From Euphorbia lathyris (taxonomy: Eukaryota > Streptophyta > Magnoliopsida > Malpighiales > Euphorbiaceae), in assembly GCF_963576675.1 (NCBI RefSeq), contig NC_088914.1, forward strand, positions 85,434,441 through 85,498,440: a stretch of 64,000 nt of DNA, in the 5' to 3' direction. This document shows, in pieces, positions 7,405-63,611 of the stretch. Both the position numbers and the translations under genes were made by a program. The notes below the pieces were generated by a model that saw nothing but the letters and a program-made list of their open reading frames with translations, was not told the DNA's origin and searched no databases. Numbering within the stretch: position 1 is the first letter of the stretch; each line of letters begins with the position of its first letter.

Positions 7405-7604
7405 TGGAGATGGAAAGAGAGAAGGAATTTAGGAAATTGAAAGAGGTTTTTTTTTTTTTTAGTTTTGTTTATTTGATGTTTGTTAGAGCAACAATATGAA
7501 GTTTTTATTTATTAATACAATTTCTAAAAGGTTGACTGTTGACTTTGAATTTTATTTTTTCTAGCAAAGGAAATCTGGTGTACCAAATCGCATGTGGTTT
7601 TTCC

Positions 7605-14559: not shown

Positions 14560-15202
14560 TGCAGGGAGTGAAACAAATGTAGAACAAAAGGAGCTTCAAG
14601 TAATTAACCACAGATGAAACAACAAAAATATCCAAATCACGTTGCCAGAAAAAATCCAGAACAAGATGAGGAACTGCAGATAATCACCGAAAACAGATGA
14701 AAACAAAAGCCGTCAAACCGTAATCCCCGAAAACAGATGAAATAAGAACAGGAATCGCAAACCACTCGAGATTGCGAGAAAACCGCAAAAATCACAGGAA
14801 GAAGATGATCGATTAACAGAAACCACAAGAACTGAAAGAAGACCAGTGCTAATCGCAAAAATTAGATGACCTGAAGTTCGATAAAAACAGCGCAAATCGC
14901 AGGAAGTAAAAGAGGAGCAAATCACGAGAATATAGCAAGCGATGCAAGTCGCAAATGTGAAAAGAAAATATCAGTCTGTAATCTGATAGCTTGTGTGAGA
15001 TTTAACTACTGCATTGCACTGCCCAAGCATACAGAGAGAAAGAGAAAAACGAGTTCCCAAGGCAGGAAAGGCGGAAGGATTGGATTAAAGCAACTGTTGC
15101 TTAAACGGTGTAATTTGTTGTATGTGCAGAGAGTAAAATCTTATAATAGATCCTTTAAACTAATAAGTTTTGTTATAAGGGTGAGAGAGGAGAAAAACTT
15201 TT

Positions 15203-28029: not shown

Positions 28030-29131
28030 TCAGTGCTGAGAATGAGGAGAAGAAGAAGAAGGCCTATCAGAAACAACACTTTGTTCTTCCTCCCCATGAA
28101 TTCGAGCCGGAATTCCGAAACCAGACAATCCCCAAGATTGATGAACATCTTGTGTTCTATGAGCATTCTGATGATCATCTGCACAAGAATTAACCATAGC
28201 AAGATCATTCCAAGCTCGAATCGAATTACCGAAACTGGACTGAAGGGTTCCCCTCTGAGAAAATTCTTGATCTTGGCTTATCAATGACAATGGTGGATTA
28301 AATCCCATCATTCTCTGCAAATTCCCCTCATAATTCTGATCCTGAAAAGGGTTAAGTGACAATCCAAGATCCTGATGATAAGCATTTCCTGAGTTTGAAT
28401 CATAATTCTGGAATGAAGCAGTGGAATTTGAAATTGGGAACAAAGATTTCATAGTGTCAGGATGAATTTGATGATGATGATCCAAATTTGGTGCAATAAA
28501 AGATGAGTATCCAGATGATTCAGATTGCTCAGGAATCACCATTTCAGCAGTAGCAGAAACAGCAACATTCTGATTTGATTCATCCATGTTTGTTGTTGAA
28601 TCAAATGGATGCCATGGAGGAAGCTCAGCAAGCTTATCAATGGAAGATTTTGCCTTTTTTATTAACCAATCCACAGCTTTGCTTGGTCTGTCATAACCTA
28701 ATCTATCTTGAACATCATAGAATTGTATTGCTGTATGTGCTGATAATCTCACCCTCCTGTCTCTAGGTCCTTTTGCTGTATAAACTTTGCTGTGCCTATC
28801 TTTTCGGCCCGTCGCCCGCACAATGTGCCCCCCTTGAACTTGCACAATTTCCCCTCCTGTCAAAACGGGTTATCCTGTTATAATCGTGTCTTACATGAAA
28901 TGCAATAAAAATGCTGTAAATTCATGTTGTTGTGTTAGAAATTGACAGCTTCGTGTCTCATATGATATGCAATAAAAATGAATTTTATGCTGTAAATTCG
29001 TGTTTTCGTGTTAGAAATTGACAGTGTTATAATAGTGTCTCACATGATATGCAATAAAAATAGGTTCTATGTAGTAGTAAATTCGTGTTGTCTTGTTAGA
29101 AATTGACAGTTTTACCGGTGCTTCCTTTCAT
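28030..29131 (-). CDS. CIN-type (class II) TCP transcription factor, TCP4-like
   Basis: Two-exon model: ATG at 29129-29131, exon 1 coding part 29116-29131, intron 28857-29115 (GT...AG), exon 2 28856-28030, giving 280 aa. The splice joins MKGST-G and GEIVQVQGG in frame, matching known TCP4-type N-termini. The TCP domain (about residues 22-80) contains the basic [20 protein letters not shown] region and the helix-loop-helix with [19 protein letters not shown]. The family binds GGNCCC-type promoter sites in the nucleus and promotes the switch from leaf-cell proliferation to differentiation. A miR319 site lies at about residues 206-213. There is no R domain, unlike TCP2/24. The C-terminal half is Ser/Gln/Asn-rich with the [14 protein letters not shown] motif of TCP3/4/10-like proteins. 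Confidence 0.92.
28235..28256 (-). promoter_or_regulatory. miR319 target site in the TCP coding sequence
   Basis: The plus-strand sequence here begins CTGGACTGAAGGG and continues TTCCCCTCT, so the mRNA is complementary to miR319 (which begins UUGGACUGAAGGG) at 12 of 13 5' positions, including the cleavage position 10-11. Location and encoded residues (RGTLQSS) match the known site in CIN-TCP genes. Post-transcriptional repression by miR319 is expected. Confidence 0.9.
28876..29112. repeat. Three-copy ~80-bp tandem repeat filling the TCP intron
   Basis: Three consecutive units (about 28884-28951, 28952-29033, 29034-29111) share GTGTCTYACATGATATGCAA, TGTAAATTCGTG and GTTAGAAATTGACAGT. They make up almost the whole 259-bp intron and repeat a TTGACAG sequence like the acceptor end at each unit boundary. 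Confidence 0.85.
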
Positions 29132-42046: not shown

Positions 42047-42074
42047 TTTCTATGGTCACTTTGTTTTTTACAAA
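42047..42074. mobile_element. Left piece of the MITE split by the Gypsy insertion
   Basis: CTATGGTCACTTTGTTTTTTACAAA is the left end of the TTACTTTGT MITE. Its continuation is at 63494-63611. The last five bases ACAAA are the Gypsy target duplication. Confidence 0.85.
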
Positions 42075-42593
42075 TGATGACTTGTGAAGAATTTCCGATT
42101 AGCTTCCGTCTCTGTGGGGGCGTCGTTGGGTTCGACGGGAGAAGCTCCGATGCCAAAGTCAGTATAAAGTATGGAAGAGTAAACTGAATTGACAAAGTAG
42201 GGTTTCTAGGACTGTGTGAATGTGTATCTTGATAGCTTGAGATGCAAGCTATATATAGTCGTGAAGTTGTAACCTTTAGTAACTAGAAAGTCTCCATTAA
42301 TGCTTCATTAATGGCGGTTACTGGTTTCCTTAAGGTATGTTTGTTAGCTTATTAATAGCTCATTAATGGCCTTTATTGCGGAATCGGCTCCGCTGCTCAG
42401 CTGGCGGACCGAGGGGTTATGGCGGATCTCCACATAGGTTTGACTGCGGATCTCACGTGGCGGAGTCTTGGTGATCCGCCTGTCGGATCCCCTCGCCTGA
42501 TATGCCATGGCATTCCAGTATCAGGTGTTCAATACATGGCTGTTCTGGGCGAATATCTCCTTTGATCCTTTGGATAATATCCCAATGTTATCA
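42075..42593 (-). repeat. 3' LTR of Gypsy/Tat element
   Basis: 519 bp. On the minus strand it runs from TGATAACATTGGG to GTCATCA. A near-palindromic CTATATATAG lies at about 42248-42257. Confidence 0.93.
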
Positions 42594-42891
42594 GAAGCGC
42601 CCCTAAAGTTCCTTTAAAGTCCTTTAGGGCTTTTGAGCTTCTTCGCGCACCGTCATAATGACTTGCATTGATGGTCACTCTGTTCGATGCCAATCGATGA
42701 GTGACACGTGTCTTAGGCGCGCCGCTCGAGGGAAGAGAAAACGCCTTCTTCCTTCCTCTCTTTCTCTTTCCACTTCATTTGCATTCCTCTTCCATCTTTC
42801 TTCGAGTTTTTTGTCCAGAGTTTTCCCGGAGTTCAGAATCCTCAAAGCCTTAACTCCTATGTAAGTGAATCTCTTCATTCTGTTTTTCTGA

Positions 42892-45091
42892 ATGTTTAGG
42901 AGTTCTTCTTCATCCTCTGAGTCTACCTTCGAACTTTTTAATTTGATCACTTCTTCCGAAACCGTAGTTAGCTGGACTTCTTCTTCTTCGGAAAATTCTG
43001 TTTCTTCCGAAGGTACTGTTAGTTGCGACTTAGCTGAGTTGCGTAACTCGGCGTGTAATAGCAATCGAACTCGCTCAGGTAGGATTCAGAACCTTCCCAT
43101 CGCCGTTACTTGTCTTGCTCCGGCAATAGATTCTAGGCGGTTTTCGAGGATGGAGGCATCTTCTTCAGCCCCGTCTAGGAAAAAGGCGCCTCGCGCGGAG
43201 TCCACTCCCTCCCGTATGAGCGCCACGGATCTAGCAAATCTTGCGGATCGCTTTCCTTGGATAAAAGAATATGAAACTAAATTGGCGGAAGCTCATCAGC
43301 GACCCGCCTGTCCGCCCATTGGGTATTTGTCTGTGTACAGTTGTCACATAGAAAGAGGGTTCTGGCTTCCTCTTCCTAAGATGATGGCGGATATCTTAGC
43401 CTACTTTGACATCACTGTCAGCCAGCTGCATCCAAATGGCTGGTTAGATCTGGCTCTGGATTGTTACTTAGCCTCAAACTTAGGGGTAGTATGTAACCCT
43501 CGTGTCTTTCGGTCCCTTCACAAACCAACAAAGCGAAAGGTTGAATCTTTCTTCACTTTCGCCAAGTTCAAATCTTATTCGCCCTTCTACGGTAAAATGT
43601 CCAATGTCCATCTTTGGGATGAGAAATTTTTCTATGTAAAGATAAGGGAGGGCGAGTCTCTAGGATTTCCGTCGGTTTGGAATGCCAAACCTTTGCATAT
43701 GGCTGGAGACATGCGTATATTGACGAACAGTGATGAGGCCTGGACATACGCTGACGCCTTGGACTTCATGATGAATGATATTCCCTTAATCCGCCAGGAA
43801 GGGGACAAGACCACTTATGTGAAGTTTACAGAACTTGATGAAGGTAACTTTGTTTTTCCTTGAACCTTGATTATTTTATGGTTCTCTTGTCAGGGGTTTG
43901 TCTAAGGCCAGTCACGCTCTTGTAGAGATACGCAAGAAACTGAAGGAGGATGAAGCTCGAAAGAAGGGGCAGGTCACGGCTCCTCATAAGAGCTTGGAGA
44001 AGCGTCCTGCTGGTGACATGGTTGATCCTCCTCTTCCAAAGAAGAAGAAATCTGTATCCACTAGTGGAGGAAAGCTAATGGCGGATGCCATGCGAGCCGT
44101 GAAACCAACGGCGAGACTCGAAGAGGTACGTTGACCGTATTGTTTTCTCTTCTCTTACTTGAATCTTACTTTCTGCTTCTTAATGCTTACATAGTGGGTG
44201 AAGTCGGACTTGGGAGCTTACTGGTCCGCCAAATATGGTGACAAAGGATCTCTGAGAAATGAATCTGTCATCAACGATTTGGACGAAGCTCTCGGCCAAC
44301 TAGGGGAAGTCCGGGAGAGCCAGAATAAGATCTCGGGATCTGCCCATATCCAGATGGGAAAAACGGAGCTTCTTACGGTAAGTTCCTTCTATCTTTTTTC
44401 GCATTTTTGGATGAAAGAGTGATCTCCTTTAGGGAGAGTTTTGTTTTTGTTCTTTCGCTTAAATTGGCTTTTGCATTGATAGGTATACACCCGTATGCGT
44501 GCTATGGAAGCGGATCTCCTTCAAGGAGTGGCGGATAAGGCAACTATAGAAAGGTTGGAGAAGGAGGTCGCCGTTGCCAATGCGAACGCTGCGTCCGCTA
44601 TTGCCCTAAATGAGAGTAAGGATGCTGAGATCCTTAAATTGAAGGAGCAAATCGATGCGGATGCTAAAGAACATGAAGCTGCTTTAGAGGGCACGGAGAT
44701 CTTGGCAAGGGAGCGAGCTTACTACTATGGCGAGTGGATCATGGCGTATGTTCAACTGGCGCATCCCGAGATTGATTTTACAGATCCGGAGTTCATGGTT
44801 CCTGACGTGGATGTTGTCCTTAAGTATCGCAAAATTCCAGAAGTCAAGGACTATATCCGTGATCACATTCGCAAGGCGATGAACGGATCCGTCGAAGAAA
44901 GCAAACCCCTTGTCGACCTTGAGCCAGAGGACCCCGGTAAAGTGCCTCCGAAGGCGGGTGACTAGAGTGAGGAGCTGATAACCGATTCTACTATTCCTCA
45001 AGGAGGAATTATTTATGTAGAGAAGGAAGCCCTACTGGAGGGTGCATCTGGTGAAAAAGATGCTAAGGAGGATGCTCCTACTGATGTTTAG
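42892..45091 (+). pseudogene. Antisense, intron-bearing ORF of the Tat/Retand element
   Basis: This reads opposite to gag-pol. The first block (42892-43843; Met 42892) has a Ser-rich N-terminus and a region matching plant 'putative gypsy type transposon' proteins (FPWIKEYETKLAEAH, GYLSVYSCHIERGFWLPLPK, LHPNGWLDLALDCYLASN, VWNAKPLHMAGD). The later blocks 43894-44125, 44195-44377 and 44483-45091 are joined by GT-AG boundaries. The last two junctions (44126-44194, 44378-44482) are phase 0 and in frame. The first gap (43844-43893) is only 50 bp and is off by one base, so that junction is uncertain or mutated. The C-terminal part is coiled-coil-like (ATIERLEKEVAVANANAAS). An in-frame TAG at 44963-44965 precedes the natural-looking end at 45091. 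The function of these ORFs is unknown. Confidence 0.75.
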
Positions 45092-45738
45092 TTTTTATTG
45101 TAAAACTAAGTACAATTTTTAATCCTCATGATAACCGTTTACTTTACTTTATGCCTTATATTATTTCAGCAAGTAAATTTATAGGCTTTAGAATTGATTT
45201 GAAGTAGGTGGCCAGCCATACCTCGTGGTGTGAACCTTTGTGAAGGCTTGAAGCTTTTATTCCTTTAGAGGAAGTTAAGCTGCCTTAGGTGATCGATTTG
45301 CTTCCTATCTTTGAGGTGAATCGATCCGCCCTTAGGACTTTGAACCCTTCTTTGGAAAGGGTGTAAGAGAGTGTAAAGATCTTGCGTCTGAGAAATGTTT
45401 TAACTCTATCTCTAATGGTGATCATTTAAGGATTGATCCGCCCATGAGATTGTTCTCCTATCCTTGAGGAGAAAGTAAAGAAAGTAGTTATGTCGTGATA
45501 GCATTGAATGCGTTTGTTGGCCCGCCTTCTTTTGTAATCTGGAATATTTATATTGCTACAAAACAAATACTTAAAAAAGAATTGATAGGACAAAAATTGC
45601 TTCTTATTGAATGGCGATGTGCCTTATTACAGCAAGTGGGTCTTATATGTGAGCCTCGTTAAAACCTTTGATAAGAAAAACCTCATGGGATAAAAACTTT
45701 ATCAAAGGAAAAAGAGTACTCAAGACCGTGATTACATT
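45092..45738. other. Non-coding spacer between antisense ORF and pol
   Basis: No ORF. It lies between the converging ends of pol (minus) and the antisense ORF (plus), where 3' ends of both transcripts would fall. Confidence 0.5.
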
Positions 45739-48700
45739 CTATTTTCCGGTGAAATATTTGCGGAGGTTCTGGATGTTCCATGTACGCGGCAGTGTATTTC
45801 CATCCATGTCTTGGATTTTAAATGTGGCGAATCCAATCTTGGTGACTATTCGGTACGGACCTGTCCAGGTGATCCCCAGCTTTCCTTTCCCCTCCATAGA
45901 TTGGATTTTGTCAGCTTTTCGGAGCACGAGATCTCCCACATTTAGATTGACGAGCTTTGCATTTTTGTCATGATAAGCCGCGATCCGCTGCTTGTAGGCT
46001 GCCATGCGTACATATGCCTTTTCCCGCTTTTCCCCCACTTGATCAAGACTTTCTTTTAACCTTTGGCTGTTTTCATCCTCGCAATAGAATGCAACTCTGT
46101 CACTTGGGACCTGTATTTCAACTGGGATTACAGCTTCCACACCGTGAGAAAGGGCGAATGGTGTTTCGCCTGTGGAAGTTCTAGGAGTAGTGCGATATGC
46201 CCATAGGATGCTCATTAACTGATCCGCCCACTTTTTGTCATGCTCCCCCAGCCTTTTCTTTATCCCCTTAACGATCGTCCGATTTGTAACTTCGGTCATA
46301 CCGTTAGATTGAGGATAATAAATGGAGGCGAATCTGTTCCGAATGCCCAATTTTTCATAGAAAGTTTTGAATTCTCCACAGTTGAATTACGTTCCATTGT
46401 CAGTGATAATTGTGTGGGGAACTCCATACCTTCCTACGATGTTATCCTTAACGAACTCCACCATTCGTTCAGCATTGATAGAGGAGACAGCTTCAGCCTC
46501 TACCGATTTGGTAAAATGATCCACAGCCACTACCACATACTTCCTCTGTCTTTTGGTAGGAGGAAAGGGTCCAACGATATCAATTCCCCAGACTGCAAAG
46601 GGTCGACCTTCGATGATGGGCCTTTGAAGGTGTTTAGCTGTGTGCCATTCATTTGCATGAATCTAACAATTATGGCAAGACTCCACTAACTTTTGAGCAT
46701 CAAGTTCCGCTGTAGGCCAATAAAATCCTGCTAACCTGGATTTCTTCAAAATGGAGGCAGATGCCTCATGGGCTCCACATGTGCCTTCGTGCAACTCTTT
46801 GAGGATCTATTGTCCCTCTTCTGGCACAATGCATTTCAGCCAGGGGTGGCTAAAATACTTTCTGTATAGGCAATCATTTATCACGGAGAAATAGGCCGCC
46901 TTCCTTACTATCCGTCGAGCTTTTTCCTTGTCCAAAGGCACAGTTCCATCTATCAGATATTGGCGGATTGGTGATCTCCAATCACTCTCCACAGACGTGA
47001 GTAAGGATACCATCTCCGAGGCGAATGCCGGTGCTGTCTTGACCTCAAACGGGCACTGCAGATCCGCCCAATGCTCCTTGCTTGAAGCCATTTTGGCTAG
47101 GTGATCGGCCTCTGTGTTAGATCCTCGAGGCACATGGATCAATTCCCACTTGGTGTCTTTGGCTTCGAGGTGATTTAACAGCTTCTTAACCTCGTCAACA
47201 TATTTGGCCAAAATGTCATCTTTTACCTTAAAATTCTTGATCACCTGGTTGACCATTAATTTTGAGTCACTGTAGATCACGATGCGTTCAGGAGTGATTT
47301 CCTTTAACATGCGCAGTCCCAATATCAAGGCTTCGTACTCTGCAGCATTGTTGGTAGCGAGGAAGTCAAGTTTTGCAGCGTAGTGCAGTTTTATATATTG
47401 GGGACCTTTGATCACGATGCCAATACCTACACCTTCCGCCGAAGAAGCCCCATCTCTATACATCGTCCATTCCTCAATTTTAGATTTGGAGAGATTCATA
47501 CCTTCTTCAGTAAATTCATTCACAAAGTCTGCCAAGACTTGACTTTTCAGGGCTGATCGGCTTTCATAGCGAACATTGAATTCCCCTAGGCGGATTGCCC
47601 ATTCCATCAATCTCCCCGAGGTTTCTGGCTTTTGCAACACTTTCCTCATTGGTATGCTTGTGCGAACTATGACAATATGAGCCTGAAAGTAGGGCCTGAG
47701 GCGAATTGATGTGGTGACAACGGCCAGCGCCATCTTATCCAGCTTGGAATATCGGGTTTCAGCATCTTTTAATACTTTGCTCACGTAATAAATTGGATAC
47801 TGCTGGCCATCTTCCTCCCTTATCATGACCGTGCAAACGGCTTTATCTGTAACGAAGACATACATATAGAGATTCTCACCTTTCAAGGGTCGACTCATTA
47901 GGGGTGGTTCTGTGAGAAACCTTTTGATCCCTTTGAAGGCTTTTTCAGAATCCTCGTTCCATTCGAACACCTTTTGCTTCTTGATCACTTCATAAAAGGG
48001 TTGGCATCTTCGAGCTGAACATGAGATAAACCTGCCCAAGGCTACGATACGCCCGTTAAGACGTTGCACCTCTCTAATATTCTGCGGCGTTTTCATTTCC
48101 AGGACAGCTTTGATCTTATCGGGGTTTGGGCTCACCCCCTTTTGGCTGATCATGAATCCCAAGAATTTTCCATACGTCGCTCCAAAGGTACATTTCTCTG
48201 GATTCAATTTAATGTTGTGATGTCGGAGTACGCCCAGTACCTCCTTTATATCATCCGCATGCTTTTCTACAGTGGTACTTTTGATGATCATATCATCCAC
48301 ATAGACAGAAAAGTTATCACCTTTGCTTCCTTCGAATATTTTGTTCATCATCCGTTGATAGGTTGCCCCCGCGTTCTTAAGCCCAAAGGGCATGACTTTG
48401 AAGCAATAGGTGGCTTGGTGTGTCACGAACGAAGTTTTGATTCTATCCAAAGGCTCCATCGGGATCTGGTGATAACTCGACTTCACATCAGTGAAGGAGT
48501 ACATGGCGTGTCCTGCTGTTCCATCGACTAGGATATCGATACACGGCAAGGGGTAGTTGTCTTTAGGACAAGCTTTGTTGAGATCTGTGAAGTCAATACA
48601 CATGCGGTATGATCCGCCTGCTTTTTTGATGAGGACTACATTTGCCAACCACTGTGTATAAAGCACCTCTTCAATGGCGTCCGCCCGCTTGAGCTTGGTG

Positions 48701-49163
48701 ATCTCCTCTTCTATCACCTTCTGCCTCTCAGGACCATGGTTCCTCCATTTTTGTGCCACCGGGACCGCGTCCTTGTCAATGTTGAGTTTGTGAGTGATCA
48801 CATCTGGACTAATCCCTGGAAGAATCTCATCTTTCCACGCAAAGACATCTTCTTACTCATGGAGAACCTTGGTAATAGCTTCCTTAATCTCTCCTTTTAG
48901 CCCTTTAGCCATCCGTACCTGTTTTTCATCCGCCATAAGGTACATTTCTGTTTCACCCAAGGCCATTGTGACAAGTTCTTCTTCGTCCTCGTCTTTAGAC
49001 TGCGGGTGAATCATTAAGGATGCTGAATACGTCTCCTGAGCAACTTTTTGGTTTCCTCGGATCATTACACCTCCCTTGGCCATGGGGGTGTAAATAGTTA
49101 AGTGGCGTATGGAGATGAGCGTCGCGGCTTCGGAGATGAAGGGCCGCCCGAGGATGATATTGT
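45739..49163 (-). pseudogene. Gypsy/Tat pol: protease end, RT, two RNase H domains, integrase
   Basis: One continuous reading frame interrupted only by in-frame stops at 48853-48855 (TAA), 46807-46809 (TAG), 46663-46665 (TAG) and 46387-46389 (TAA). It starts within protease (LGRPFIS side) at the SIRE junction. RT is at about 48700-48150 (YVDDMIIKS, LGFMISQKG). RNase H with DKMALAVV and YESR motifs follows at about 47900-47530. A second RNase H of archaeal type (RDGASSAEG, AAEYEALILGL, YSDSKL, NTEADHLAKMAS) lies at about 47460-47090. Integrase runs from about 46830 (CHNC, GIDIVGP, TDNGT, YPQSNGMTEV) to 45739, ending NLRKYFTGK with no chromodomain seen. The stops at CHNC*IHAN and DNGT*FN fall at positions where Gln is standard. 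Confidence 0.9.
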
Positions 49164-50500
49164 TGTTGGTCCCTTGTTTAGTTGCAAGTATAGTTCCAAG
49201 GGGGGGGGGGTTAGGAACTATTTAAACTTTTTTCGCAATTTAGGCAGACTTCTTTTTCTAAAGAAAGTTTGAACAGCGGCGCTGAGTGAACAGTAAGGTA
49301 CTGGCTTAGTCAACAGGTGACTAGGTCAGTTTCTTAGCTTGAGTCAGGAGATAGCACCTGGAGTCTATTCCTGAACTCAGATGTTCAACGCGCACAACTC
49401 AACTTGACCTCTTTATTTGGTCAGTTTTGATTATTTAAAGCAAGCAATATAAATAAGGAGTTAAGGTAAGAAATACTTCACTCAGCAGATTTATCTAGGT
49501 TCGGCTTCTTCTAAGCCTACGTCTTATCCCCGGAACACGTTCCGAGATTTCAAATACTCTACTGAGCTCTTTAAAGGTAGAGCCTCAAACCTTTTACAAT
49601 ATCAGCAATTGAGTATGACAAGAGTACCTTCCTCTATACTTCTACTCAATCCTAATCTCTTCGCTGAGTACTTAAAATCGAGTACTCAGCCTCTCCTTTC
49701 TATCTCTAGAAATGATAAGTGTTTTGTCCTAATACAAAGATGTGCTAAGACACTTTAGACGATTTACAATCACTCTAGACTTTTACACAGATATGAGAAA
49801 TGTAGTGTAAGAATTTTGCTTTGCTTCTTGCTTGCAGAACTTGTAGAGATTTGGTCAGCGTAATGGCTTGATCAAGTTCTGTGTTTTGTGAAGCTTGTGA
49901 TGACACTATTTATAGAGACGTCTGGGTCATCGGTCATTTCGAATTTCGAAATAACCGTTGGAGGGAAACGGCTATGTGTCGTTGTCATCCTGACTTGTAC
50001 GGAGCTCTCGGCCAATCACAATCGTGTATCTTCTGTCCTCGGTCAGCTCAGCAGATGGTCTCTCCTTTTATGGTAAAGTCAACTGGACATCATACTGTGT
50101 CGTCTAAAATTTGCCAAAAGAGGAAACACTTTGTCTGGAAGTTTTCCTTTGCCAGCTGCTGTCTAGTACGCTTTGTCGAGACTACTCAGCAGCTTCATTG
50201 TGAAGTTGTTCCTGAAGGTCTTCTAGATCCTTCCGTTTGCTGAGTTGCGTTTTTGTTCAAAACGGCAACGTCTTGACATACGCGGGCCGAGTGTACTGAG
50301 TTGTTTGACTTGGGCCTTGGCTTCCATATTGGGCTTGGGCCTTCCAATCCTTATGACTTATAACATTTATACTCAACATTGAACAAACACATTAGTAGAA
50401 TAAATCAAAGCATTTAAACTTAGTGTGTTTAGAATATGTATTTTAATTTATACTTAAACAATTTTGTCAAATCAAAATTATGTGGAAAGGTGTTTCAACA
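49164..50500 (-). repeat. 3' LTR of SIRE element
   Basis: 1337 bp direct repeat of 59270-60602. It contains an 11-base G-run (49200-49210), against 7 in the other LTR. Confidence 0.95.
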
Positions 50501-51064
50501 AACTCCCCCATTTTGATGTTGGCAAAACTATTCAGCAAGGAACTCAGTATGAGCTCCCCCATGATAGTTGACCTAGTATAATTAAGCAAACTCCCCCGTA
50601 AGGGTTGAGCTACTGACTTAGTTTTACTTAAGACATTTAAGGATTTAAATGAGTAAGTCTAAGGTCAGATATAGGTCAGCTATATCACATATTCTATTTA
50701 CTCAGTGTTAGGCGGAAGTTTTTAGACATATAGAGCGTGCTGAATAATTTGTTGTTCAATGAGTTCTTATCAGAATATTTCATAAGTGTATAGGTTCATG
50801 TCAAACATGTTATCAGCATATCATTTAGTCAATAAATATTATAAGTGTTAAACAAAGCTGATATAAATGAAGATACATAATAACTCAGTACTTATTAGCA
50901 TATATCATAACTCAGTATTTGAATAAGAAAAGTAAGTATGATATATAAGTTGAAAGAAGTCAGCAGTTACACAGCAAAAGAAATAATCATAGCACATAGA
51001 TTACAAATGTTAAGACCTAGCCTATCTATTTCTTTTTCTTGCCCTGTGACTGACTTCGCTCGTA
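50501..51064 (-). other. SIRE 3' untranslated region and polypurine tract
   Basis: Non-coding stretch between the extra ORF and the 3' LTR. The purine tract (minus strand GGGGGAGTT) directly abuts the LTR at 50501. CTCCCC blocks recur at 50550 and 50592. Confidence 0.6.
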
Positions 51065-53854
51065 CTAACGTCGCTCATGCTGAGCTCTGGCAGCTTGCGC
51101 TTTCTCCCCCGTTTTGTCAACTTCAGGGAGCTTGAACGCATCGGTTAAGATAGCACGAGAAATTTCTTGTGAAAGCTCTTTTAGTTTGTCAGCACTTTCG
51201 TTTACGCCATCAAAAATGGCAACTCCATCAGCTGATACTTAGACTGGTATATAAAGATCAGCAGCACTGAGCATATTTACACTGAAAGCTTGAGCTTTGG
51301 CTTGCCAGATGAGAGCTTCAGAGAGTCCAGCAAAGACTTGGTGGAAAGTTTTTAAGAGAGCTGAGTCATAATGATGACGCTGGATATTATTATGACGGAT
51401 GTGATTGAAGGATTGCTGTGCGAGAGATAGCAACTCATTCTGTTTCAACGCGTCAGTATCCATCTCTTGTTTGTTGAGGTTAAATAGCCTGATGGCCTCA
51501 CCGATTTGCTCGACTTAGCACTGACTATAGGACACCATTTGCTCATTTGTCTTAAGTTGCTCAGTATGAAGCTGAGCAAAAAGCATCTTGAGTTCTGAGG
51601 AAGTGGCATAGTCAGTGTTCACAGCAGATAACTTCTGAACTTGCTGATGGAGAGAGTTCAGATGTTGAATTATTGATAGCTGTATCTCTGCCAACTTGGC
51701 AAGTGAATCCTTCTTAGCTTGCTGGGCTTGGAATGACAAGACTACATTCAGCAGATCCTTGAGGCCCTTGACTTCGTTGAGAAGTAGAGTGACCTGGGAG
51801 AGCTGAGTTGTCTCAGGAATTGAAGATCCAGCAGCAGGCAAAGCGGAGTGTTGAAGATCGTGGATGAGTGCTTGTACTGAGTCAATGAGCTTTTTGCCGG
51901 ACTCAGTGGCATCCCGATGTACATCAGTATGACCAGAAGAAAGTGGAGTGAAGAGAGTACCCTGGTCAGTGACTGGATGAGTTGGCTCAATCTGCACTTG
52001 AGTTGGAGGAATTGTTGATTGATCAGCAGAGAGAGTTGTTGTAGAAGTAATAACCCGAACACTGTCTGTGCTGACGGCGGAAAGATGGGGAGTCAGCACC
52101 ATGCTTAAGGAGACAGCATGAGCAGTGGTCGGTTCAACCTGACTAGTTGACGTGGTTGAAGTGTTATGGTCGGCATGTTCCTGTTGAGAAGAAATAGAGG
52201 CTTGTTTTTCCAACGGTGCGGAGGAAGTTGAAGTGGATTGCCGCTTGAAGAATGTCAGTTTGACAGTAGAAGGATCCTTTGTTGTCTTGGAGAGGACAAG
52301 TTTAGGAATAGATGGTGATTGCACAGGAGGTTCACTGACCATTTTCTCACTGGCCTTAACCAGCTTTCGCCTTCTACGCGGTGGAGTGGTATGATGAGCA
52401 GGTTCTTCTGAGTGAGTAGGAGAAGGTTCTTTGTGCTCAGTATGGGTCTGGTCAGCTTGCTCAACTTGCTCAACTCAAGCAGCTAACTCGGTGTCAGTTT
52501 GCACAGCTCCACACTCTAACCCAGTGTTAGCATTTTCAACCTCGATTTCGCTGTCATACTCTTCAGACTCCTCAGTGTCATCCTGACCACTGGCTTCAGC
52601 TTCTTCTTCAGCAGTGCTATCTCCATCAAGTTCTTCCTCAGCTTGGGAGATGAAGTGGTCATCTAACTGGACCTCAGTTTCCGTAGCATCAGTACCTTGG
52701 CATTGAGTGAAATGAGAATCACCCGGTATAATAAAGTCGGTCGGTATAACGTCCAGAGGTTCCAGTGTAGAAGTCTTTTGCTTCTTCTGAGGTAGTTCAG
52801 CAGCTTCCTCAGTTCCAGGCTCATATTGCCTGGTTCTCTTTTCAGCTGACTTTCCAGCTGACCTCTGCCTCTTTGTAGGAGACTCAACATTTGGTGAAGG
52901 AGTCTCAACAGACATTCTCTTGCGAGAAGCTGGGGCCTTAGATCGTCGCCCTTTCTGAGGCACATCAGTGGATTCCTCAGCTTGGTCAGTTTGACCAGCA
53001 GCAGCAACTTTTCCCTTCTTCAAGGGTTGTCCAAATTTAAGTGCCCTCAGCGAGGCAGCTGTGATCTCAGTTCCTCTGAAGGATTCCTCGCCTTTGAGAT
53101 CAATCTTGTGGTCAAGAAGAATTCGAGTTATCAGTGACCCAAGTCTCATCGTACCCGTGCTGTGTAGAAACCCAGCAACTAAGAAAACCGGCATGTTGAT
53201 GGGGGTGTACGTCAGCATGTGCCATATGAAGCACTGTTCAAAGTTGGTTGCTGATGTAGTGCAGTTGATCTTTGGGTAAATGAAGTAGCTCAGCAGGTAG
53301 TGAGCCATCTTCTGGTGCTGTCCCATTGAAGATGCTGAGATCTCTCCTGAGTGACCCTCAGGTTTGCAGAAGGTATGGACATAGTCGGTTTTGTCCTGAT
53401 CTCCTGACTTCCTCACCCTTACTCCCTCAGTTTTGAGCTGGAGGAGATTTCCTATGTACAGAGGGTTGATGAAGATGGTTTTCCCTTTTACTTCAGTGCT
53501 TAGGTAGTCGGCGTAGTCACTGGCAACCTTGAGGTTGTGATAAAATTCCCTCACTAGGTCAGGATATGTCTCATCCCTGACCGAGAACAGCCCAGTCCAC
53601 TCATTTTTAGAAATCCATTCGGCAAATGGCTGTTCGTTCTGCACAAAGTGCTCCGAAACCCATCTGGAGGGTTCTACCTTCCATTCAGATATATTGTCGA
53701 AGACCTTGGAGTAGGTCCTGATCTTAACAGCTTTCTCTTTTCCAGAAGTTTGGCCAGTTTTACCCTTGCTCGGTGTAGAAGGGTTTTGTGAAGGTTCATC
53801 GGAGCTGGACTATTGGTGGCCGGCACCGGAGACTTTGAAAGATAACTTAGTCAT
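51065..53854 (-). pseudogene. SIRE env-position ORF (unknown function) with four stops
   Basis: A single 930-codon frame from ATG 53852-53854 to the stop at 51065-51067. It is interrupted by TAG at 53810, TGA at 52475, TAA at 51515 and TAA at 51239, without frameshifts. Residues about 60-280 match the 'putative plant transposon protein' domain found in such ORFs (WISKNEWTGLF, REFYHNLKVA, IGNLLQLK, QHQKMAHYLLSYFIYP, INMPVFLVAGFLHST). The middle is acidic and Lys-rich with nuclear-localisation-like clusters (PQKKQKT, RSKAPASRKR). The C-terminal third is Ser/Thr/Gln-rich followed by a helical region. I see no signal peptide or transmembrane helix, so the traditional 'envelope-like' label is not supported by sequence. 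Confidence 0.8.
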
Positions 53855-54337
53855 TCTTCGAAGATGGAGGAATTAGAGGAATTTGAAAGAAAAGAAGTTC
53901 TAAGTGATTTCTTTGCCTTAAGAATTGATTAAGCGTAAAGAGTAAAAGATGGGGAAATACCTATAATTTATAGACGAAATGAACGGTGTGGATCTTAATC
54001 AAATCCATGTGTGAGTTTTGCCTTGGGATCATGTACCGACAATGATCCTGGCATTTATGACACATTACGGTGAATACGTCATCCTAGGCTATACGCGTGC
54101 TTTGCATTTATGCTAACGGATTAATCACTCAGTATTTAGAATGTCAAGCGTTTGATATTCTGAGTGGTTAGTGCATTATTTAAGAATGATTTTAAGGTCA
54201 AGTTCTAAACTAATTTACTCAGTGTGCAAGTGTACTCAGTATTGTATATTCAGTCAGTTTCAATGAGATACTCAGCAAACAAAAAAATCATTCAGCATGT
54301 AATTCACTCAGCATTCATATTAATTTAGCACAGGAAT
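53855..54337. other. SIRE spacer between pol and the extra ORF
   Basis: Non-coding, rich in ACTCAGTA/TACTGAGT motifs typical of this element. It may contain the splice acceptor for a subgenomic mRNA, but I cannot place it. Confidence 0.4.
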
Positions 54338-57300
54338 TTACTGAAGAGGATTAAACATACCAATTGCTTCTCTCAGTATGCTGAACTGCTCACGGGCCAG
54401 TGGCTTCGTGAAGATATCAGCAAGCTGTTCGTCCATTGGGACAAAGGTCAGCTTGATCTCACCCTTGAGTACATGGTCTCTAATGAAGTGATGTCTGATG
54501 CTGACATGCTTCATTCTGTTGTGTTGAATTGGGTTCTTGGAAAGATCAATTGCGCTTTTGTTGTCACATTTGACTTCAATTGTTTTCGTTTGAACACCAT
54601 AGTCTTCAAGCTATTGCTTGATCCATAGGACTTGAGCAACACAATGACCAGCAGCAATGTACTCAGCTTCAGTGGTGGACAGGGCTACTGACGCCTGCTT
54701 TTTGCTGAACCAGGATACAAGACAGCTTCCTAAGAAGTGGCATCCTCCAGAGGTGCTTTTTCGTTCCAGCTTATCTTGTCCATAGTCAGCGTCAGTGTAT
54801 CCGATGAGTGTAAAATCATGAGTATTTGGATACCACAAACCTGCGTTTACTGAGCTTTGCAAATATCTAAGGATCCTTTTTACAGCAATGTAATGAGATT
54901 CCTTAGGGTTAGATTGATATCTAGCACAGTAGCATACTGAAAACTGAATGTCCGGTCTACTGGCTGTCAAGTAAAGTAGAGAGCCTATCATACCTCGATA
55001 TAACTTGCTGTCTATTGACTTACCATTCTCATCAGCACAGAGGATAGTGTCAGTGCCCATAGGAGTGGATATTGGCTTGCAATTTTCCAAGTCATATTTC
55101 TTTAAGATCTCCTTGGCATATTTGGCTTGACTGATGAAGATGCCATTCTTTCCTTGTTTAATTTGAAGACCGAGGAAGAAGTTGAGTTCTCCCATCATGG
55201 ACATTTGAAACTCAGTCTGCATTTGTTTACTAAACTCCTTGCACATTGATTCGTTAGTTGCACCAAATATTATATCATCAACATAAATTTGGGCCAGCAG
55301 GGTATCTTTACCCTTTTTCTTAATGAATAAGGTTGTATCAGCTTTGCCCCTGACGTAATTTCTAGTCAGCAGGAAACTGGTCAGCCTCTCATACCAAGCA
55401 CGTGGTGCTTGTTTGAGGCCGTATAGAGCCTTTTTGAGTTTATAAACATGGTTTGGGAACTTAGGGTCCTCAAAACCTGGAGGTTACATAAACCTCCTCG
55501 TTTATAACTCCATTAAGAAATGCACTTTTGACATCCATTTGGAATAATTTAAAATTCATGTAAGATGCATATGCACATAATATTCTAATTGCCTCTAGCC
55601 TTGCCACTGGGGCAAAGGTCTCACCGTAGTCTATACCTTCTTGCTGACTGTAGCCCTGAGCTACAAGCCTTGCTTTGTTCTTGACTACGTTTCCTTGTTC
55701 GTCCATCTTGTTCCTGAAGACCCATCTTGTTCCGATGGTCTTTTGACTCTTTGGATGAGGCACTAACTCCCATACATCATTTCTTCGAAATTGATCGAGC
55801 TCCTCTTGCATTGCATTCATCCAGAATTCATCGTACTCAGCTTTAGCGAAATTCTTCGGTTCTTGTACTGAGATGAAAGCAACATTGCTGAGGTACTTCC
55901 TGAGTTGATTCCTCGTCATCAGGGTATTCCCAGCAGAATCAAGGATTGCACTTTCGGAGTGCCCTCTTGGAATCCTTATTTCTTTGGGTAGATTTATGTC
56001 TTGTGTTGTTCCTGTTTCAACAATCTCTGCAGAAGTAGATGGGTCAGTAAAAGTAATCTTAGGTTCACTCTTACTCTTGGTCAGCCTTTTCGTGAATGAC
56101 TCAGTAGCTGGTTCTGGGTCAGTGATGGTTACTGAGTTTGGATCATCTTCGGTCAGCGGCTGGTATCTACCTGCAGGGTCAGTTTCATCGAACTCTACAT
56201 GTATTGACTCTTCTAAAACTTGAGTCCGCTTATTAAAAACTCTGTATGCTTTGCTGTTTGTTGAGTAGCCCAAAAAGATAGCCTCATCAGCTTTTGAATC
56301 AAACTTTGCTAAGCTATCTTTGGTATTTAAAATAAAACATCTACAGCCAAAGGCACGAAAGTATCCAATATTGGGCTTTCTTCCTTTCCAAAGTTCATAG
56401 GGGGTTTTCTTGAGTATAGGTCTAACTAGAGCCCTATTAAGAATGTAGCATGCTGTGTTAACAGCCTCTCCCCAAAAATACTTTGGAAGCCTATGCTCAT
56501 CCAGCATTGTCTTGGCTATTTCAACCAGAGTTCTGTTCTTCCTTTCTACAAACCCATTTTACTGAGGTGTTCTAGGAGCAGAAAAATTGTGGTCAATGTC
56601 GCTGGCTTCACAGAATTCAACAAACTTTTGGTTTTTGAACTCTCCACCGTTATCACTATGGATATGAGCTAATTTTAGGTCTTTTTCATTTTCAATTTTT
56701 CTAACCAAATTTGAAAATGTCTCAAAAGTCTCATCCTTGCTGGTCAGCAAGATGACCCACGTATACCGAGAGAAGTCATCTACAATGACCAAAGAAAATC
56801 TTCTTCCACCCAGACTCAGCGGCTGGACTGGACCAAAGAGATCCAAGTGTAGCAACTCTAACGGACATTTAGTTGAGACAATGTTTTTACTGTGAAAAGA
56901 TTGTTTGGTTTGTTTTCCAGCTTGGCAAGCGTGGCATAATTGATCTTTTTGAAATTTAAGTTCGGGCAGTCCCTCAACCAATTGCTTTCTTGCTAGTTTG
57001 GCTAGGAGGTCCATGCTTACATGACCAAGTCTCCTGTGCCATAGCCAGGAATTTTCTTCCTTTGTTACTAAGCACACAGTTTTTGAAAACTTTTTCTCTA
57101 AGTCTAGCATAAAGACATTATCTATCCGAGGGGCAGTTAAAATTAACTCATTTGTTTTACCCTCGTATATTTTACATCCAGTAGCATCAAATATAACTTT
57201 TCTCCCATTGTCATATAGCTGAGCTACGCTGAGTAAGTTATATTTGAGTCCGCTGACTAGGGAGACAGATTCAATAGTAGGATTACCTCCGATGGTTCCT

Positions 57301-59207
57301 GAGCCTACTATCTTACCCTTCTTGTTGTCTCCAAAACTTACGCTCCCTCCTCCTTTACGTTCAAACGTGATGAACTGAGTTTCATCACCCGTCATATGCC
57401 TTGAGCATGCGCTGTCAATATACCACATCTTTGACTTCTCGGCACATCTCAGGCTTACCTGCATTGTAACTAGTTACTTTTAGGTACCCAATTCTTTTTG
57501 GGTCCTGACTTGTTAGGTGCAACAGGTATAGCATCATACTTTATTTTATGGCGGCATACATGGACAGTATGGCCATTCTTTCCACAGAAGTCACAACTGA
57601 CCTTATGTTTAGGGTTTTTTACTGACTTGTCATCACCCCAGTGCTGAGCGTGCCAGCACACCTTAGTGGTGTATCCTAACTTCCCACAAAAGTCACACTA
57701 GACTTTTCGCTGGGGATTCCATCTCTGCCGAGTACCTCGGTACTGAGTTCTCAGAGGAATGTTATTTTTCTTAGGAACCTTTAGTTGGTTCTGGATGGTT
57801 GTGACGTCCTTCCTCAGTTTCTTTGAAACTGACTGGACTTTAGAGACATACTCATACATGATCTTCATGTTATCATGCAGAGTCGAATTGTCCTGAAGAA
57901 GGTATCTGAGGTCACTCAGTTTGACCTCCTCCACTTCGTCACAGCGCCTGCTGAGTGCTCTAACCTTCTTATTACACTTCTTAACAAGTGTATAGAGGTC
58001 ACTCAGGGCATTAACCATATCGTTTCTGAGCTGGGGAAGAGAAATTACCTCATTTGATTGCTCTTCATCATTTGATGCGATGGATGGATCAGCATGCTCA
58101 GAGACGCATGGCTCAGCAAGTTCGTCAGCCATAAAGCATATCTTCGCTGACTCGGTGGCCTCAGTTTCTGTTGATGAAGATTCATCACTGTCACTCCAAG
58201 TAGCCACCATTGCCTTCTTCCCACTCTTCTTGTCTTTCCTCAGCGTGGGGCAGTTTGACTTAATATGGCCAGTTTGATGGCACTCAAAGCATGTAATGGT
58301 CTTTGAGCTATCCTTTGTATTTGCTGTCGCTTGAGTCAGCCTTATACTTATCAAACTTTTTTTAAGGCTTTTTAGAATATTTGTCGTTCTTCCTAAACAG
58401 CCTTTTCATCTTCCTTGTGAACATAGCCATCTCCTCATCATTAATTGAACTCCCGTCAGTGGAGTCAGCTTTCATGACAAGTGACTTCTGCTTCTTGTCA
58501 TCAGATTTTTCCTTCACCTCAAAGTTTTTCATGGATATCTCATGGGTCAGTAATGAACTGATGAGTTCGTCATATTTGTAGGTGGTTAAATCCTGAGCTT
58601 CCTCAACTGCTGTCTTCTTTGCTTGCCAGTCCTTTGGAAGACTCCTGAGTATCTTTTTGAATTGTTCTTCCTCAGTGAAGATTTTCCCAAGTCTCTTGAG
58701 CTCATTTATGATGTTGGTGAATCTTACGTTCATGTCTGAAATGCCCTCATCATTATTCATCTCGAACAGCTCGTACAGTCTCATCTGCTGATTCACCTTG
58801 GATTCTTTTACTTTATTTGTTCCCTCGTAGGTGACTTCCAGCTTTTTCCAGATCTCTTGTGCCAACTCGCAACCTGAGATTTTGTTATATTCTGCAGCAT
58901 CGAGCGCACAGTGAAGCATATTGATAGCCGAAGCATGGTTTTGAAGCTTCTTAAGATCATCCTCTGTCCATTTGGCCTCAGCTTTTATAACTGTTTGGCC
59001 AGCCATAACCTCGACAGGTACAAACGGGCCTTGGACTATGGATAGCCAGGCACTCATGTTTGTAGCCTGAATGAAGTTTTTCATCCTATTCTTCCAGAAG
59101 GTATAGTTTGACCCGAAGAATAGGGGAGGCCTAGTAATGGACAGCCCCTCAGGCAGTATTTGAGTTGTTTGGTTTCCAGGGAGAAACCGAGTGCTGTTTT
59201 CGCCCAT
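54338..59207 (-). pseudogene. SIRE gag-pol polyprotein, disrupted
   Basis: Starts MGENSTRFLPGNQTTQ at 59207. Gag (UBN2-type) is followed by zinc knuckles CFECHQTGHIKSNC and CDFCGKNGHTVHVC. A frameshift in an A-run lies near 58355-58361, a TAG at 57698, and a frame change near 57465. Protease reads WYIDSACSRHMTG, with Ala where Gly is expected in D-S-G, so it would be inactive even in frame. Integrase has WHRRLGHVS...CHACQAGKQ, HSDNGGEF and, after a TAA at 56559 (TPQ*NG), the Glu region. RT reads to [12 protein letters not shown], with a frameshift near 55490. YVDDIIFG follows. RNase H (YTDADYG, STTEAEYIAAGH) is cut by TAG at 54611, and the frame ends at 54338. Confidence 0.9.
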
Positions 59208-59255
59208 GGTAGGGATCAGCTCAAGGTTGTTAGACCTTTTAAAGTGAGCTTTTAA

Positions 59256-59267
59256 GCTCTGATACCA
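59256..59267 (-). other. SIRE primer-binding site, initiator-Met tRNA type
   Basis: TGGTATCAGAGC on the minus strand, two bases inside the 5' LTR. Confidence 0.9.
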
Positions 59268-59269
59268 CT

Positions 59270-60602
59270 TGTTGGTCCCTTGTTTAGTTGCAAGTATAGT
59301 TCCAAGGGGGGGTTAGGAACTATTTAAACTTTTTTCGCAATTTAGGCAGACTTCTTTTTCTAAAGAAAGTTTGAACAGCGTCGCTGAGTGAACAGTAAGG
59401 TACTGGCTTAGTCAACAGGTGACTAGGTCAGTTTCTTAGCTTGAGTCAGGAGATAGCACCTAGAGTCTATTCCTGAACTCAGACGTTCAACGCGCACAAC
59501 TCAACTTGACCTCTTTATTTGGTCAATTTTGATTATTTAGAGCAAGCAATATAAATAAGGAGTTAAGGTAAGAAATACTTCACTCGGCAGATTTATCAGG
59601 GTTCGGCTTCTTCTAAGCCTACGTCCTGTCCCCAGAACATGTTCCGAGATTTCAAATACTCTACCGAGATCTTTAAAGGTAGAGCCTCAAACCTTTTACA
59701 ATATCAGCAATTGAGTATGACAAGAGTACCTTCCTCTATACTTCTACTCAATCCTAATCTCTCCGCTGAGTACTTAAAACCGAGTACTCAGCCTCTCCTT
59801 TCTATCTCTAGAAATGATAAGTGTTTTGTCCTAATACAAAGATGTGCTAAGACACTTTAGACGATTTACAATCACTCTAGACTTTTACACAGATATGAGA
59901 AATGTAGTGTAAGAATTTTGCTTTGCTTCTTGCTTGCAGAACTTGTAGAGATTTGGTCAGCGTAATGGCTTGATCAAGTTCTGTGTTTTGTGAAGCTTGT
60001 GATGGCACTATTTATAGAGACGTCTGGGTCATCGGTCATTTCGAATTTCGAAATAACCGTTGGAGGGAAACGGCTATGTGTCGTTGTCATCCTGACTTGT
60101 ACAAAGCTCTCGGCCAATCACAATCGTGTATCTTCTGTCCTCGGTCAGCTCAGCAGATGGTCTCTCCTTTTATGGTAAAGTCAACTGGACAGCATATTGT
60201 GTCGTCTGAACTTTGCCAAAAGAGGAAACACTTTGTCTGGAAGTTTTCCTTTGCCAGCTGCTGTCTAGTACGCTTTGTCGAGACTACTCAGCAGCTTCAT
60301 TGTGAAGTTGTTCCTGAAGGTCTTCTAGATCCTTCCGTTTGCTGAGTTGCGTTTTTGTTCAAAACGGCAACGTCTTGACATACGCGGGCCGAGTGTACTG
60401 AGTTGTTTGACTTGGGCCTTGGCTTCCATATTGGGCTTGGGCCTTCCAATCCTTATGACTTATAACATTTATACTCAACATTGAACAAACACATTAGTAG
60501 AATAAATCAAAGCATTTAAACTTAGTGTGTTTAGAATATGTATTTTAATTTATACTTAAACAATTTTGTCAAATCAAAATTATGTGGAAAGGTGTTTCAA
60601 CA
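59270..60602 (-). repeat. 5' LTR of SIRE element
   Basis: 1333 bp. It contains TATAAATA on the minus strand (plus 60009-60016), the likely promoter of the element. Confidence 0.95.
60009..60016 (-). promoter_or_regulatory. TATA box in the SIRE 5' LTR
   Basis: CTATAAATAG on the minus strand. It is conserved in the 3' LTR (about 49907-49914). Confidence 0.65.
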
Positions 60603-60607
60603 ATTGT

Positions 60608-62973: not shown

Positions 62974-63493
62974 TGATGACTTGTGGAGAATTTCCAATTA
63001 GCTTCCATCTCTGTGGGGGCGTCGTTGGGTTCGACGGGGGGAAGCTCCGATGCCAAAGTCAGTATAAAGAATGGAAGAGTAAACTGAATTGACAAAGTAG
63101 GGTTTCTAGGATTGTGTGAATGTGTACCTTGATAGCTTGAGATGCAAGCTATATATAGTCGTGAAGTTGTAACCTTTAGTAACTAGAAAGTCTCCATTAA
63201 TGCTTCATTAATGGCGGTTACTGGTTTCCTTTAGGTATGTTCGTTAGCTTATTAATAGCTCATTAATGGCCTTTATTGCGGAATCAGCTCCGCTGCTCAG
63301 CTGGCGGACCGAGGGGTTATGGCGGATCTCCACATAGGTTTGACTGCGGATCTCACGTGGCAGAGTCTTGGTGATCCACCTGTCGGATCCCGTCGCCTGA
63401 TACGCCATGGCATTCCGGTATCAGGTGATCAATACACGGCTGTTCTGGGCGAATATCTCCTTTGATCCTTTGGATAATATCCCAATGTTATCA
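62974..63493 (-). repeat. 5' LTR of Gypsy/Tat element
   Basis: 520-bp direct repeat of 42075-42593. It contains TATATATA at 63150-63157 as a plausible promoter. On the minus strand TTGGTGCGGTGAAGG follows two bases after the LTR and is a possible primer-binding site, but I could not assign the tRNA. Confidence 0.93.
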
Positions 63494-63611
63494 ACAAAGT
63501 ACTATTATTTGGTGTGTTTTCACCATTGGATGATGGATTAGAAAATTAATCCAATGGTAAAAACACACAAAGTAAGGCTTACTTTGTTAAAAACAAAGTA
63601 ACCATAGAATA
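63494..63611. mobile_element. Right piece of the MITE split by the Gypsy insertion
   Basis: Begins with the ACAAA target duplication and continues GTACTATTATTTGGTGTGTTTTC..., ending CAAAGTAACCATAG. It is homologous to 37683-37816 and complements 42047-42074. Confidence 0.85.

Follow-up and report, generated by a model that had tools for sequence, protein, structure and literature searches.

The window analysed here, a stretch of 64,000 nt of the Euphorbia lathyris genome, carries an LTR retrotransposon on its minus strand. Between the end of pol and the 3′ LTR of this element a coding series runs on the plus strand and is interrupted by intron-like gaps. The locus thus raises the question whether these gaps are introns of one antisense gene and, if so, how introns could persist in an element that multiplies through RNA. 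From the comparison of genomic copies we consider it very probable (about 0.87) that the series represents a four-exon, spliced, protein-coding antisense gene carried by a Retand (Tat) Gypsy element.

The host element

The element is delimited by two LTRs of 519 and 520 bp (edges set by eye) with ACAAA on either side. Its main features are the following.

42070-42074 and 63494-63498: 5-bp target duplication ACAAA, flanking the LTR pair
42075-42593, minus strand: 3′ LTR of the Retand element, a repeat of 62974-63493 (96.4% identical, K2P 0.035), edges by eye
45739-46386, minus strand: C-terminal part of the integrase in pol, recognised by eye (SH3_Tf2-1, its best match in Pfam, stays below cut-off), convergent with the antisense gene
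46807-48852, minus strand: pol with reverse transcriptase, RNase H and second RNase H (RVT_3), by Pfam
49163-60603, minus strand: inserted LTR element with LTRs at 49163-50501 and 59269-60603 (98% identical), Copia-type by eye from its ORFs
62974-63493, minus strand: 5′ LTR of the Retand element, edges by eye

If rates of 1.3e-8 and 7e-9 are assumed, the K2P distance corresponds to an LTR age of approximately 1.4-2.5 million years. In the pol ORF the domains follow in the order RVT_1, RT_RNaseH and RVT_3/RNase_H (residues 461-590), with the integrase part downstream as judged by eye. From its place, the second RNase H would be of the archaeal type (aRH). The same RNase H order as in Retand-type pol is described for Ogre (PMC6317226). 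The region between pol and the 3′ LTR (42594-45738) comprises 3,145 nt, and for Retand elements 2.9-6.6 kb is given (PMC11963269). The element thus combines an LTR pair with a 5-bp duplication, a second RNase H, a long region between pol and the 3′ LTR and an antisense TRP28 ORF, as Retand elements do.

The convergent arrangement is not peculiar to the window. Among 71 loci examined, nine had no match to exon 4 or none to the integrase; in all 62 loci holding both, the two matches lie on opposite strands and face each other, with their ends 743-1088 nt apart.

Exon-intron structure of the antisense gene

The coding series starts with an ATG at 42892 and ends with a TAG at 45089-45091, and its first part matches the Pfam family PF04195 "Putative gypsy type transposon" (Transposase_28/TRP28) with 34.8 bits at a cut-off of 26.2. 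Both observations agree with the initial annotation, and the antisense coding series as such is confirmed. The annotation had also described GT-AG gaps, two of which (44126-44194, 69 nt, and 44378-44482, 105 nt) join in frame. This is exact for these two, but the count has to be corrected to three, as the gap 43844-43925 (82 nt, GT-AG) joins in frame as well. The AG at 43925 is the first listed one to do so, and 43955 does it too. The following structure results.

42892-43843, plus strand: exon 1, TRP28/Transposase_28 domain at residues 150-209
43844-43925, plus strand: intron 1 of phase 1, 82 nt long (81-87 nt in relatives), most copies also having a second AG at 43893
43926-44125, plus strand: exon 2, open frame with the basic stretch PPLPKKKK
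44126-44194, plus strand: intron 2 of phase 0, 69 nt long (66-74 nt in relatives)
44195-44377, plus strand: exon 3, dN/dS 0.07 between subfamilies
44378-44482, plus strand: intron 3 of phase 0, 105 nt long (78-106 nt in relatives)
44483-45091, plus strand: exon 4 with the helical tail; early TAG at 44963-44965, beyond which the frame stays open up to the TAG at 45089-45091

With the three gaps removed, one frame extends from 42892 to 45091, and the early TAG is the sole one in frame. A shorter version of the first gap (43844-43893) was rejected as the main intron 1, being 50 nt long and out of frame; its AG is conserved and may serve as an alternative acceptor.

The T content of the gaps is 48-52% (the first gap taken as 43844-43893) compared to 19-30% in the exons. 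When splice sites were scored with a textbook 9-base consensus, the donors of the three gaps and of a possible further gap at the 5′ end were all among the six highest-scoring of 123 GTs. Among 167 AGs the acceptors are not outstanding (ranks 15-26 for intron 1, 9-14 for intron 2 and 15-26 for intron 3), and a search for a branch-point-like motif in intron 3 gave no match.

Splice sites in genomic copies

Copies of the gene were collected from the E. lathyris assembly (1.02 Gb), in which the window occupies 85434441-85498440 of its contig. With 43600-45091 as the DNA query, 39 further close copies at 84-95% identity were obtained, the best 40 of 2,267 candidates having been scored, including the window. 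A second family (12 loci) was obtained with the related protein P0001 as query, and further families (12 loci and three more) with P0011. Locus L009 is the window itself, and L001-L008 represent distant TRP28 families, which stand outside the splice-site, dN/dS and open-frame counts. L024, L028 and L046, with exon 1 unaligned, were omitted from the dN/dS, site-difference, divergence, polymorphism and close-copy frame counts, and L039 additionally from the subfamily comparison (dN/dS and site differences).

The exon peptides align to the second-family and further loci in four blocks, the ends of which coincide to the residue or nearly so. Across the 39 close and 12 second-family copies, introns 2 and 3 keep GT and AG without exception (51/51 each) while their lengths range from 68 to 73 and from 81 to 106 nt, respectively; intron 1 (81-86 nt) has its GT in 50 of 51 and its AG in 50 of 51 copies. 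The comparison of GT-AG boundaries between family members, which had been proposed together with the initial annotation, therefore speaks for the intron reading. The 15 further loci give a similar picture: GT 14/15 and AG 15/15 for intron 1 (one boundary being nominal), GT 13/15 and AG 15/15 for intron 2, and 15/15 for both ends of intron 3.

Within 37 aligned rows, none of the 12 splice-site bases is polymorphic, compared to 115 of the 244 remaining positions in the introns (Fisher p 0.0007, to be taken as a guide since the sites share one history). Singletons at splice-site bases, 0 seen vs. 3.3 expected, provide a weak test. GT-AG ends, in-frame joining and a fixed position combined with free length are what would be expected of spliceosomal introns, and on this basis we take the gaps to be probable introns.

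Predicted gene models and related proteins

Database searches, which depend on shared short words and in some of which part of the candidates was scored, returned 23 related proteins, all of them named as E. lathyris proteins. Junction 3 is spliced in all 21 models that reach it, the other two stopping short. Junction 2 is spliced at the same place in 17 of the 19 models that reach it (P0016 counted by eye); P0007 and P0015 are joined otherwise. At junction 1, eight models are spliced as proposed for the window, two retain the intron, five are joined differently and eight do not reach it. In protein alignments with models of other copies no gaps occur at junctions 2 and 3, save P0007 at junction 2. 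Being predictions, these models from NCBI could depend on the very sequence signals that our own reading uses. Four of them are named isoform X1, X2 or X3, and such naming in the NCBI pipeline may point to transcript support.

A basic stretch of the PPLPKKKK type is present in 16 of the 23 models, part of which do not cover that place. The AlphaFold model of the relative P0002 has a long C-terminal helix, but at a mean pLDDT of 43.5 its confidence is too low for use. No relative turned up in three scans of viral contigs.

Open frames and selection on the protein

The spliced frame was followed from part of exon 1 onward into exon 4, up to 44962 or as far as the match extends, with exon ends outside the close family taken from tblastn. 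It is open in 28 of 64 copies, namely in 10 of 37 close copies (including the window), 9 of 12 second-family copies, and 7 of 12 and 2 of 3 others. In contrast, the unspliced frame from exon 2 to exon 4 is open in none of the 64. Family members with an open frame across the junctions do exist, contrary to one of two outcomes that the initial annotation had named as fatal to its reading.

The other outcome, equal rates of evolution in exons and introns, requires a more differentiated answer. In a crude comparison with the window, exons (0.078-0.092) and introns (0.044, 0.116 and 0.077) of the close copies have diverged to a similar degree, and taken alone this would count against introns. A codon-resolved comparison separates the two. 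Between subfamilies, differences amount to 0.079 at codon positions 1+2, 0.270 at 4-fold sites and 0.096-0.186 in introns; the introns thus change more slowly than 4-fold sites, which counts against the behaviour of free introns. For the same level of comparison (224 pairs, exon 1 from 43402 only) dN is 0.073 and dS 0.465, giving a dN/dS of 0.16. Between families (444 pairs, exon 1 from 43402) dN/dS is 0.09 with dS saturated, so this value is a bound only. The ratios show that the predicted protein has been under purifying selection.

These data bear on two other ways of explaining the series. The gaps could be U-rich spacers, or products of decay, between separate antisense ORFs, and surveys have indeed counted separate antisense ORFs in this region (PMC11963269). 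As the exons join residue-perfect in several families although the gap lengths change, and as the close family shows no variation at its splice-site bases, we regard such spacers as hardly credible. The antisense transcript could also act as RNA, for example by forming double-stranded RNA or small RNAs, with the protein frame being a relic. Such an activity has been suggested as a possible parallel role (PMC7264820), and it would be in line with the broken spliced frames of 36 of the 64 copies. Nevertheless, the low dN/dS between subfamilies, particularly that of exon 3, and the invariant splice-site bases imply that selection on the amplifying lineages acted on the protein, which makes a role of the RNA in place of the protein quite improbable. 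A spliced gene encoding a selected protein is the explanation we prefer.

Conservation of intron 1

Intron 1 deviates from the other two. Between families it differs by 0.192, compared to 0.215 at codon positions 1+2, 0.49 and 0.50 in introns 2 and 3, and 0.60 at 4-fold sites. It is therefore as conserved as codon positions 1+2, unlike a free intron.

One explanation accepts introns 2 and 3 as real and takes intron 1 as regulated or optional. It would be either retained or spliced to the acceptor at 43893 or 43925, yielding a TRP28-only or a TRP28-plus-tail protein, and would mostly be coding in the families with an 84-nt gap. Both acceptors persist: of 39 close copies, 36 have the AG at 43893 and all 39 that at 43925, and in the second family each of the two occurs in 11 of 12 copies. 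Moreover, the NCBI models are divided between the 43925 type, retention and other joins as given above, and the frame with intron 1 retained is open in 11 of 12 copies of the second family and 2 of 3 of the other 84-nt family. On the other hand, the gap is mostly 82 nt long in the window's family (31/39) and 85 nt in L061-L072 (10/12), where the retained frame is open in 0 of 37 close copies and 0 of 12, respectively, and splicing to 43893 would be out of frame in the window. Regulated splicing is possible in view of the two kept acceptors and the conservation of the intron, and we give an optional intron 1 somewhat less than even odds. It is unlikely, in our view, that the conservation reflects a sense-strand element of the genomic RNA such as a packaging or priming signal. 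This would explain why the difference between families is low whatever the frame, and why intron 1 falls within the lowest 3% of 82-nt windows by diversity; however, equally low windows are spread across the region. For the four-exon gene we keep intron 1 in its 82-nt form.

Unspliced junctions and persistence of the introns

Junction patterns of the window's family were searched genome-wide with up to three mismatches. The unspliced 24-mer across exon 3 and intron 3 has 444 matches and that across intron 3 and exon 4 has 228, while the spliced exon 3-exon 4 24-mer has none in this family, spliced copies of distant families being beyond its reach. Controls with reversed patterns all gave 0 matches. 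With a spliced query of 433 nt, each of the best 40 of 1,686 candidates (including the window) aligned in three separate pieces, 120 matches altogether. According to this, the family seems to multiply via RNA from which the introns have not been removed, as would be the case for sense RNA. Hundreds of copies with intron 3 junctions, and none found without intron 3, support a replication through sense RNA only.

The introns are probably kept in the copies because the RNA of the element reads the opposite strand, so that they are irremovable. The initial annotation had proposed that an antisense gene retains its introns, and the excess of unspliced junctions fits this proposal. Its premise that retrotransposons rarely keep introns needs to be qualified, as Ogre and EVADE are exceptions on the sense strand (PMC12786077). 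As a whole its interpretation is supported, as far as genomic copies can tell.

The data are consistent with the following course of events. Transcription of the gene would proceed toward pol from near the 3′ LTR, where the start and a promoter are presumably located, and the host spliceosome would remove three short U-rich introns from the antisense transcript. In the predicted product, the N-terminal TRP28 domain is followed by a basic stretch, possibly a nuclear signal, and by a long helical tail; the protein would have a putative regulatory role in the life cycle of the element. Amplification would proceed via the sense RNA, in which the introns read CT...AC and would not be recognised, so that reverse transcription would copy them faithfully. 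Splicing of the genomic RNA should thus pass over these introns.

The 5′ end and the state of the window's copy

Upstream of the ATG at 42892 a further short stretch deserves attention.

42859-42901, plus strand: a start-stop mini-ORF or, at 42861-42901, a possible 5′ intron of 41 nt that splits the start codon; ATG followed directly by TAA/GTAAGT, up to TTTAG/G

The conserved sequence ATG-TAA-GT is followed 41 nt downstream by TTTAG/GAGTTC. Of 36 close copies, 35 have the sequence ATGTAAGTG and 34 the acceptor TAG/G; ATGTAAGT and TTTAG/G recur in two copies of the second family. The stretch 42861-42901 could be a fourth intron that splits the start codon, or belong to a start-stop mini-ORF; 41-44 nt would be very short for a plant intron. 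A G-box at 42703 was rejected as a conserved promoter element, being exact in just 13 of 36 close copies.

The copy in the window is damaged. It carries the early TAG (44963-44965), which is common to 4 of 36 close copies, while the stop at 45089-45091 is present in 36 of 36. The gene model P0016 continues beyond the site of the early stop to the equivalent C-terminus. In addition, the window's copy is missing 36 nt of exon 1 that are present in 38 of 39 close copies (the remaining one does not align there), and the element as a whole is interrupted by a large insertion.

Comparison with known antisense genes and introns of LTR elements

Vicient 2025 (PMC11963269) reports TRP28 in all but two of 63 Retand clusters (97%), predicts DNA binding for it, and describes antisense TRP28 ORFs as nearly universal in young Retand elements, with their origin and function called open. 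The window gene shares the lineage, the place between pol and the 3′ LTR, the orientation and PF04195 with these ORFs. The difference is that single ORFs are described there, collected by ORF Finder at a length of at least 600 bp, or shorter if they contained TRP28, whereas the window gene appears as a spliced unit of four exons. The term "intron" gave no hit in that paper. Titles and abstracts, from a range to which most subscription journals do not belong, yielded no report of introns in antisense TRP28 genes. Retand elements are thus already known to carry antisense TRP28 ORFs, and the new aspect is a probably spliced multi-exon structure with conserved splice sites.

If the window gene is spliced from four exons, several "antisense ORFs" counted per element may be exons of one gene. 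In a count of additional ORFs with 250 or more codons, Neumann 2019 (PMC6317226) found Transposase_28 for 23% of the Retand elements, a low value that may partly result from the gene being split. The multi-exon structure, at least in one genome, may hence explain split or missing TRP28 in surveys of single ORFs, and a likely protein sequence of the antisense gene is now available for tests.

Grande with its gene23 in maize, RIRE2 and Retand of Silene likewise carry an antisense accessory gene at the 3′ end, as compared via a review (PMC7264820). For the Grande gene the review mentions an own upstream promoter and a nuclear protein, and its authors, Vicient and Casacuberta 2020, call for a search for antisense and spliced transcripts. 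HBZ of HTLV-1 is also an antisense gene of an LTR element; its alternatively spliced transcript has its start in the 3′ LTR (PMC1459196). It differs in belonging to a retrovirus, in having its first exon inside the LTR and in encoding an unrelated protein, and for the window gene start and splicing are predicted from sequence features. With a layout comparable to that of HBZ, the antisense TRP28 gene is a natural plant candidate for a spliced antisense gene. Introns inside plant LTR elements are known from Ogre and EVADE (PMC12786077, PMC6317226), but these are introns of the sense RNA, in Ogre spliced from a subset of transcripts. The Ogre intron is located between protease and reverse transcriptase, whereas the window introns are antisense and lie beyond the integrase; they are therefore of another kind.

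Distant TRP28 loci of E. lathyris (L002-L008) show a poorly conserved gap GTGAGG...AG behind the TRP28 region in 7 of 7 cases, starting at about position 2140 on the gene strand. The frame is shifted across this gap in three loci (L006-L008), a stop lies inside it in three (L003-L005), and it is open in one (L002). Tentatively, and with considerable doubt, a general scheme may be suggested. Retand elements of flowering plants might as a rule carry a spliced antisense regulatory gene, the introns of which are preserved since only sense RNA is copied; intron 1 might switch between TRP28-only and TRP28-plus-tail proteins, the catalogued ORFs might be exons of this gene, and an old GTGAGG...AG intron might indicate that the gene entered the element bearing introns and in reversed orientation.

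Other elements and genes in the window

The inserted element at 49163-60603 has extra sense ORFs between pol and its own 3′ LTR at 51515-53809, and for the ORF 51515-52474 no Pfam match was obtained. Env-like ORFs between pol and the 3′ LTR are a feature of Sireviruses. On the minus strand, a separate LTR element is recognisable by eye from Copia-like gag and pol ORFs at 9810-14595. Two near-identical ORFs on the same strand (298-1101 and 6673-7428, 93% at the DNA level) resemble, by eye, genes for ATL-type RING-finger E3 ligases, and 28030-28869 (minus strand) holds a gene for a transcription factor of the TCP family (PF03634, 113.9 bits).
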